From Actinomycetes bacterium (GTDB lineage Bacteria > Actinomycetota > Aquicultoria > SURF-47 > JAUUWJ01): a DNA stretch of 10,837 nt. Position numbers and translations under genes: made by a program. Below the pieces are notes generated by a model, which saw only the letters and a list, made by a program, of their open reading frames with translations, was not told the origin of the DNA and did no database searches. Every line of letters begins with the position of its first letter. Position 1 is the first letter of the stretch. Location of the stretch: positions 1 through 10,837 of the forward strand of contig JAUUWJ010000010.1 of NCBI GenBank assembly GCA_030589175.1. The letters are read 5' to 3'. Below, one piece after another: positions 7,797 through 10,715 of this stretch.

Positions 7797-8873
7797 TTGG
7801 AAAAAGAAAAAATGCTTGATCTGACCAGAGATCAAATCGAAAAGAAATATGGCAAAGGCGCCTTAATGAGATTGGGGGAACGAGCTGCCAGAATGCACAT
7901 AGGAAGAATCTCAACCGGAGCCCTCTCTTTAGATATTGCTTTAGGCATAGGAGGCGTTCCAAGGGGAAGAATAATTGAAATATTCGGTCCGGAAGCCTCA
8001 GGAAAAACAACCCTAAGTTTGGAAATTATAGCCCAAGCCCAAAAAGAAAACGGAATAGCGGCTTTTATTGACGCTGAACACGCTCTGGACCCGGTATATG
8101 CGAAAAAGCTTGGCGTAGATGTTGATAACCTGCTCATATCTCAACCAGACACAGGAGAGCAAGCTTTAGAGATCACCGAAATGCTTGTTAGGAGCGGTGC
8201 AGTTGATATTGTAGCCATAGATTCAGTAGCCGCTCTTGTCCCTAAGGCTGAAATAGAAGGAGAAATGGGTGACTCTCATATGGGGCTGCAAGCAAGGTTG
8301 ATGTCGCAAGCTTTAAGAAAGCTAGCTGGAAGTATTAGTAAGTCAAAAACGTGTACGGTTTTTATTAATCAACTTAGAGAAAAAATAGGAATAATGTTTG
8401 GTAATCCTGAAACAACTCCCGGAGGAAGAGCATTAAAGTTTTATTCTTCAGTTAGAATAGATATAAGAAGGATTGAAACTTTAAAGGTAGGCACTGAAAT
8501 GATAGGCAACAGAGTACGGGCAAAAGTCGTTAAAAACAAAGTTGCACCTCCTTTCAGGCAAGCTATATTTGACATTTACTATGGTAAGGGGATTTCAAAA
8601 ACTTCAAATATTTTGGACCTGTGCGTGGATAAGGGAATAATTGTAAAAAGTGGCGCCTGGTATGGTTATCAAAATAAAAGAATTGGACAAGGCAGAGAAG
8701 CGGCATGCCAATATTTAGAAAAAAATCCGTCTATTCTTAAGAAAATAGAACAAGAAGTAAAATTAGCAAACGGGCTTATTGAATCAAAGACGGCCAATAA
8801 AGAAAAAGCGACTAAAGAAACAACGAAAAAAGCGGCTGGGCAGTCACAAGTAAAAGTAAAAAGCATAAGTTAG
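7797..8873 (+). CDS. recA: Recombinase RecA
   Basis: RecA forms ATP-dependent filaments on single-stranded DNA, drives strand exchange and triggers LexA self-cleavage. It is 358 residues, a normal length. Visible elements: the N-terminal [16 protein letters not shown]; Walker A GPEASGKT at 64-71 (Lys70); DAEHALDP; Walker B VDIVAIDS (Asp142); loop L1 around [10 protein letters not shown]; loop L2 with [26 protein letters not shown]; and a Lys/Ala-rich tail (about 329-358) unlike the acidic tail of E. coli RecA. The start is TTG at 7797, chosen because AAGGAG at 7785-7790 is six bases upstream, while the ATG at 7812 has no such site. The gene is transcribed from its own LexA-controlled promoter. 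No recX follows, although recX often does in related genomes. There is no intein and no lost motif. Confidence 0.98.
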
Positions 8874-9173: not shown

Positions 9174-10715
9174 ATGTACGAAGTATTAGTTGTTTTAGTA
9201 ATTACTGCCTTATCAATAGCCAGCGTTGCATCAATAACTTACGTCAGGAGAAACAAGGCAGTAGGGAAAATAGATGACGCAAATGAAAGCGCAAAAAACA
9301 TTATTAGTAATGCAAAAAAGGAGGCAGAAAACAAAAAGAGAGAAATAATAATAGAGGCGAAAGACCAAGCATATGCTATCAAAAACGAATCAGAGAAAGA
9401 AATACGTAAAAGAAGGCAGGAAATATCAGGGCTCGAAAAGAGAATCATTCAAAAAGAAGAACAAATTGATGACAAGCTTACAAAGTTAGCTAATAGAGAT
9501 AAAGAAGCCCTAAGGACAAGAGAAAAACAAAAAGAAAGAGAAAAAGAGCTTGAAAAAGCATTTGAACAACAAAAAAATCAGTTGGAAGACATTGCTAGCC
9601 TTACCACTGATGAAGCAAAGGATATTCTTCTTAAGAAAGTTGAAGAACAATGCCGCAAAGATGCTGCTCATCTTATAAACAATATAGAACAAGAGGCAAA
9701 AGAAACGGCTGACAAAAAAGCTAGAAACATAATTACTCTAGCAATACAAAGATGTGCGGCGGACCAAGTAGCAGAGACAACAGTGTCTGTTGTCTCTCTT
9801 CCCAGCGATGATGTGAAAGGAAGGATAATCGGCAGAGAAGGAAGAAATATTCGTGCTTTTGAAAACATAAGCGGCATGAACCTCATTATCGATGATACTC
9901 CTGAAGCCGTAATAATCTCCGGTTTTGATCCTGTAAGAAGAGAAATAGCTCGACTTACCCTAGAAAGATTAATAGCAGACGGTCGAATTCAACCGGCAAG
10001 AATTGAAGAAATGTACAATAAAACAAAAAAAGAAGTTGATGCGGAAATTAAAAAGGCCGGAGAGCAAGCAGCAATGGACGCAGATGTCATGGGAATAAAT
10101 CAAGAGCTTCTTAGAGTCGTAGGAAGATTAAAATATAGAACAAGTTACGGACAAAATGTCTTGCAGCACTCCCTGGAAGTTTCAGCTTTGGCGGGAACAA
10201 TAGCTTCCGAACTTGGAATTGACCCCAAAAATGCCAAACGAGCGGTATTCTTGCAGGATTTAGGAAAAGCAATAGATCATGAAGTAGAGGGCCCCCATGC
10301 TTTAATAGGCGCTGATCTTGCAAAACGCTTTAAAGAAAATCAAATTATTTGTAATGCTATTGCTTCCCACCATGAAGAAGTAGACCCGGAAACCATTGAA
10401 GCCGTACTGATTAAAGCCGCAGATGGAATTTCAGGCGCAAGACCTGGAGCAAGAAGAGATAATCTGGAAAGATATATTAAAAGACTAGAAAATCTTGAAC
10501 AGTTGGCGGAGTCCCATAAAGGCGTATCAAAAAGTTTTGCGGTTCAGGCAGGAAGAGAAATAAGAGTTATTGTTAATCCCGAAGAAATAAACGATAAGGA
10601 AACCGCGCTTTTGGCAAAAGAAATTGCTAATAAAATCGAAGGCGAATTGGAATATCCGGGACAGATAAAAGTAACTGTTATTAGAGAATTTAGAAACGTT
10701 GACTACGCAAAATAA
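9174..10715 (+). CDS. rny: Ribonuclease Y with an altered HD dyad (His to Gln)
   Basis: RNase Y is the membrane-bound endonuclease that starts mRNA decay in many Gram-positive bacteria. It is 513 residues (B. subtilis has 520). I see an N-terminal membrane segment (about 4-24), a long charged coiled coil (about 30-190), a KH domain (about 205-270) with GRIIGREGRNIRAFE and IIDDTPEAVIISGFDP, and the HD domain (about 328-425). HD residues kept are His332, Asp362, His399-His400 and Asp417, plus GRLKYRTSYGQNVL and ARPGARR. The catalytic dyad, normally HDxGK, reads QDLGK: Gln361 (codon CAG at 10254-10256) replaces the metal-binding His equivalent to B. subtilis His368. Nearby AADGISG replaces the usual AADAISA. 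The start has AGGAGG at 9160-9165. The gene family is certain; whether this copy is catalytically active is not. Confidence 0.96.
   Translation: MYEVLVVLVITALSIASVASITYVRRNKAVGKIDDANESAKNIISNAKKEAENKKREIIIEAKDQAYAIKNESEKEIRKRRQEISGLEKRIIQKEEQIDDKLTKLANRDKEALRTREKQKEREKELEKAFEQQKNQLEDIASLTTDEAKDILLKKVEEQCRKDAAHLINNIEQEAKETADKKARNIITLAIQRCAADQVAETTVSVVSLPSDDVKGRIIGREGRNIRAFENISGMNLIIDDTPEAVIISGFDPVRREIARLTLERLIADGRIQPARIEEMYNKTKKEVDAEIKKAGEQAAMDADVMGINQELLRVVGRLKYRTSYGQNVLQHSLEVSALAGTIASELGIDPKNAKRAVFLQDLGKAIDHEVEGPHALIGADLAKRFKENQIICNAIASHHEEVDPETIEAVLIKAADGISGARPGARRDNLERYIKRLENLEQLAESHKGVSKSFAVQAGREIRVIVNPEEINDKETALLAKEIANKIEGELEYPGQIKVTVIREFRNVDYAK

Follow-up and report, generated by a model that had tools for sequence, protein, structure and literature searches.

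In published work, RNase Y is sensitive to changes in its HD dyad. Single dyad mutations 'almost abolish' cleavage by the Bacillus subtilis enzyme, and in that organism inactive RNase Y has a dominant-negative effect (PMC10303841). Mutating both dyad residues abolishes the rescue of Escherichia coli lacking RNase E (PMC5436854). B. subtilis, Staphylococcus aureus and Streptococcus pyogenes tolerate deletion of rny, and in S. aureus a membrane-anchored active-site mutant partly reverts the effect of an anchorless form (PMC4608709). Elsewhere, water can replace the dyad His in OxsA, and changes to the metal ligands inactivate YfbR (PMC8177086).

RNase Y gene and its altered HD dyad

We analysed a stretch of 10,837 nucleotides (the window) from an uncultured bacterium, whose assembly (G000) comprises 276 contigs and is 71% complete. 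Positions 9174 to 10715 hold a complete rny gene of 513 codons plus stop, with the following features.

9174 to 10715, + strand: rny, complete RNase Y gene, 513 amino acids, ATG start (family and domain matches; sole PF12072 match in the assembly)
9189 to 9767, + strand: RNase_Y_N region, hydrophobic N-terminal anchor and coiled coil (Pfam PF12072, residues 6-198)
9795 to 9959, + strand: KH domain (Pfam PF00013, residues 208-262)
9819 to 9851, + strand: GRIIGREGRNI motif inside the KH domain (motif position)
10158 to 10433, + strand: HD domain (Pfam PF01966, residues 329-420)
10167 to 10169, + strand: His332, first ligand, intact (position read)
10245 to 10250, + strand: Val358 and Phe359, unusual residues directly before the dyad, where most others have Gly and Leu (protein alignments)
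10254 to 10259, + strand: altered HD dyad, Gln361 (CAG, 10254-10256) and Asp362 (GAT, 10257-10259) (codons read)
10296 to 10298, + strand: His375, intact, ligand role by analogy with PgpH (position read)
10368 to 10373, + strand: His399-His400, intact, ligand roles by analogy with PgpH (position read)
10422 to 10424, + strand: Asp417, last ligand, intact (position read)
10425 to 10427, + strand: Gly418, unusual residue beside Asp417, found in 0 of 238 others (protein alignments)

The product scores 701.4 bits against NCBIfam TIGR03319 (cut-off 454.35) over residues 10-513 and has the Pfam domain order of RNase Y (RNase_Y_N, KH_1, HD). Upstream of rny lies recA (7797-8873), giving the recA-rny order; of the 29 rny loci read from relatives, 22 likewise include recA in their 1.5 kb flank. 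Judged from its sequence, the protein is a member of the RNase Y family by descent. Its anchor comprises the first ~23 residues, as judged by eye, and the predicted structure model draws the coiled coil as a single long helix. The PF12072 search found no second rny in the assembly.

The initial annotation had read the HD dyad as QD, and we confirmed CAG at this codon in an intact 513-codon frame. The dyad stretch is QDLGK, against HD(I/L/V)GK in relatives, so the His-Asp dyad of a competent RNase Y nuclease is replaced by Gln361-Asp362. CAG is unremarkable as a codon here, since it accounts for 7 of the 22 Gln codons of the gene. All six other residues of the metal motif H..HD..H..HH..D are kept, among them the ligands outside the dyad that a competent enzyme has (His332, His375, His399, His400 and Asp417). 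The annotation was likewise right that the other ligands, the KH domain and the full-length frame are intact. It had also taken two Ala-to-Gly changes by Asp417 as pointing to a reshaped site and away from an isolated error. Gly418 is indeed unique, but Gly421 is ordinary (64 of the 238 other listed RNase Ys), and we rejected the pair as a joint signal; the idea of a reshaped site keeps moderate support from Val358, Phe359, Gly418 and Asp429.

Structure models of the Gln protein (mean pLDDT 75.2, pTM 0.45) and of its His-bearing sister P0003 (77.4 and 0.45) agree almost completely in the succession of their helices and strands. The helix leading up to the dyad ends at residue 359 in the former and at the equivalent of residue 360 in the latter. 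Because the two are nearly alike, no local change at the dyad is clearly predicted, and such models judge single residues poorly. Searching solved structures by sequence returned no match with the single window protein and, with a profile, one KH protein and nothing else.

Rarity of Gln361 and the activity to be expected

Residue 361 is His in all 238 other RNase Ys listed and aligned, which were the 119 best of 7993 matches to the whole protein and the 119 best of 2895 matches to residues 341-384; none of the latter 119 is a Gln form. The relatives' genomic rny loci agree (His in 29/29). These come from 60 genomes searched, 53 of which had an RNase Y match, G000 included; 29 of the other 52 were read as loci. 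Conservation of Gln in relatives, which the annotation had proposed checking, was thus not observed. It had held that His in relatives would mark the Gln as a sequencing error, yet the nearest proteins among the matches listed (P0002-P0007) are 70-74% identical to the window RNase Y, which is too distant to decide between change and error.

An exact DNA pattern for the Gln form, run on 36 genomes of the class and 296 of the phylum (both counts including G000), occurred in G000 alone; the pattern also demands the following codons for G-K-A-x-D-H, so that diverged forms escape it. The matching His-form pattern, applied to the class sample only, occurred in 30 of 36 genomes. An RNase Y match was absent from 6 of 24 phylum-level relatives, and many members of the phylum may have none. 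A scan of genome contigs gave 14 loci at 50-58% identity, mostly from Clostridia. A search of the RNase Y literature, covering few subscription journals and therefore weak evidence, found no naturally occurring RNase Y that lacks the dyad His. Gln361 in an otherwise complete RNase Y is confirmed as a rare substitution.

Two further sequences lack a different ligand. In L021 (genome G026, same class; rny at 678-2207), Val replaces His332, with the codon GTC two bases from CAC; the remaining motif is intact and the counted stretch holds only two other unusual residues. In P0138, from an Eggerthellaceae MAG, position 332 is Gln and 29 further residues across the protein are unusual; given this scatter its sequence may be poor. 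With these two cases, ligand loss in RNase Y is rare but not unique to the window.

By analogy with the B. subtilis and S. aureus dyad mutants, from which a loss or change of activity can be inferred, the Gln361 protein is probably largely unable to cut RNA. The chief alternative is that the Gln form still cuts, its six ligands holding one or two metals with an altered metal preference or rate. Gln or water would fill the position of the His, and Val358, Phe359 and Gly418 would repack the site. We consider this unlikely, but it is a serious rival because six of the seven ligands are kept and because the dyad His of OxsA can be replaced by water (PMC8177086); the unusual residues near the dyad could also compensate. 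Set against it are the near-abolition of B. subtilis RNase Y activity by single dyad mutations (PMC10303841) and the inactivation of YfbR by metal-ligand changes (PMC8177086), as well as the absence of Gln here from all 238 other listed RNase Ys.

Real substitution or wrong base

We regard it as improbable that a single assembly base is wrong and the organism really has His361. The codon is one base away from either His codon, the site is otherwise invariant (238/238 His), the other six ligands are intact and the assembly is fragmented and incomplete, all of which would fit an error. The HD domain, however, has four more unusual changes, whereas the conserved columns of the rest of the protein have none. 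Among columns at least 97% conserved in the 119 proteins that the whole-protein search listed besides this one, 5 of 47 are changed in the HD domain (residues 325-432; G358V, L359F, H361Q, A418G and E429D) versus 0 of 106 in the rest (Fisher 0.0023). Of the eight listed proteins richest in HD changes, the window RNase Y has the lowest value; P0113 and P0011, with 6 and 5 such changes, are also altered outside the domain. With Gln361 left out, the counts become 4/46 versus 0/106 (approx. 0.008, worked by hand). P0138 was dropped from the background of the unusual-residue lists. Within the clade, private differences number 31 in the window RNase Y, of which 9 fall in the HD domain; for the six sisters combined the total is 52, of which 7 fall there. 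Its terminal branch is 0.325, versus 0.051-0.155 for P0002-P0007, in a tree of 43 proteins from which the long entries P0011 and P0014 and all after P0045 were left out.

Clustering of changes near the ligands gave Fisher values of 0.049, 0.017, 0.025, 0.004, 0.035 and 0.119 at widths 1 to 6, and of 0.13, 0.046, 0.057, 0.009, 0.068 and 0.20 without residue 361; the six widths were chosen after the sites had been seen, which makes the values exploratory. In a wider test the window RNase Y ranks 7 or 9 of 239. With Fisher values spread from 0.004 to 0.20 and this rank, the clustering at the ligands is suggestive only.

Every frame in the window is open, and the window RecA looks normal: of 140 conserved columns, a single one carries a private change (E257I); on the same unique-residue measure RNase Y has four private changes versus one in RecA (P0240 and P0241 left out of the RecA test). 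Ten HD matches were found in the assembly and eight were given as loci; these eight include rny itself and L079, which escaped the motif, and the remaining six proteins, all read, keep their HD. Neither a general decay of genes nor an elevated error rate across the contig is supported, given the normal-looking RecA and these six proteins.

Some observations concern the RecA entries themselves. The window recA was read from a TTG start, and P0240 starts at a Met five residues later. P0241 is a near relative, its RecA 94% identical to that of the window. P0242-P0245 are RecA entries of 424-490 residues with repeated RecA segments and are probably assembly artefacts.

A database protein is identical to the window RNase Y, and its cluster lists a 12819-base contig, versus 10837 bases for the window contig. 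P0240, the RecA cluster representative, comes from a contig of 7966 bases; it is shortened at both termini relative to the window RecA and differs from it by K337T. We infer that a second assembly or strain shares Gln361; which cluster member lies on which contig is not stated, and reads could be shared. The HD-only changes and the identical database protein speak with moderate strength against a lone base error.

RNA-decay enzymes, a possible scaffold role and comparison with known systems

RNase J is absent from its usual place, as the annotation had noted; a gap separates the end of dapA (1398) from the start of uppP (1493).

1399 to 1492, no strand: 94-base gap between dapA and uppP, where relatives carry RNase J (window frames and relatives' loci)

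In 19 of 20 RNase J loci from relatives, dapB/dapA and uppP/ftsK flank rnj; the twentieth starts at a contig end and has only uppP visible. No RNase J match was found in G000 (71% complete). RNase J scored over the cut-off in 33 of 40 genomes searched, G000 included. It did not in G003, G015 and G020 (family f4, 90-99% complete), and no match was found in G030 (75% complete), G033 or G034 (both at least 90% complete), so absence of RNase J recurs in the class. G015 (97% complete) is without an RNase Y match too. Given the 71% completeness of G000, the missing sequence could hold RNase J away from its usual place, or a further decay enzyme.

The genome search that the annotation had called for returned no second rny and no rnj, but RNase E/G is present in G000 and over the cut-off in 30 of 36 class genomes. 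The G000 protein has 481 residues and runs off a contig end. It aligns with residues 5-429 of E. coli RNase E, including the segments TAIDVNTG, IVIDFIDM and CPTC, which contain the catalytic aspartates and the zinc-link cysteines. PNPase was over the cut-off in 33 of 36 class genomes versus none in this assembly, where the gene may lie past a contig end; in some relatives (G001, G009 and G012) PNPase and RNase J are a few kilobases apart on one contig.

Our preferred reading, to which we give an even chance, is a real, lineage-specific loss of the dyad His. The metal site would be impaired and RNA cutting lost or greatly reduced, while the protein would be kept as a membrane-anchored, oligomeric scaffold that binds RNA, or as a brake on decay. 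The anchor, coiled coil and KH domain would remain for binding and assembly. mRNA decay would be started by RNase E/G, the presence of which would make the loss of RNase Y cutting tolerable. A more tentative version, which we hold with rather less confidence, has this lineage of uncultured Actinomycetota in effect giving up both of the decay enzymes that typify Gram-positive bacteria, with RNase J gone as well, leaving RNase Y as a non-cutting, membrane-anchored RNA-binding scaffold and RNase E/G to start decay. Against a long-standing scaffold, the six kept ligands agree equally well or better with a base error, a loss of recent date or a site that still works, and no Gln sister is known among the relatives compared, hence no conservation of Gln.

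It is improbable that RNase Y is instead on its way out, its activity recently lost, selection relaxing and no role kept, for although the terminal branch is long, RNase J already gone, RNase E/G available and the class genome G015 without any RNase Y match, the frame is intact and no conserved column outside the HD domain is changed (0/106).

If the scaffold reading is true, RNase Y has a selected role apart from cutting. If the substitution is real, it would be a natural split of RNase Y cutting from binding and tethering, and would illustrate how a bacterium can functionally lose RNases Y and J when most of its class has both, along with RNase E/G.

Two other HD domains offer comparisons. 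That of the c-di-AMP phosphodiesterase PgpH (4s1b) has all seven ligands and acts on another substrate. The HD domain of the bacterial heterotetrameric GlyRS beta subunit is among the best fold matches of the window RNase Y model, and according to PMC8464048 it, too, is an HD fold that lacks the His-Asp doublet and belongs to a protein that handles RNA. In GlyRS beta, however, both dyad residues are replaced (Ser393 and Lys394 in E. coli), whereas the window protein keeps Asp362, and the two have no sequence kinship as far as tested.

With known RNase Y (Rny/YmdA/CvfA; TIGR03319) the window protein shares architecture, family score, the recA neighbour, the KH domain and six of seven ligands; it differs in having Gln for the dyad His and the unusual residues Val358, Phe359, Gly418 and Asp429. 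A further parallel is offered by the laboratory mutants B. subtilis H368A/D369A and S. aureus 367AA, in which the same dyad is hit and the rest of the protein kept. Those are engineered alanine doubles (PMC10303841, PMC4608709), whereas the window carries a natural Gln with the Asp kept.
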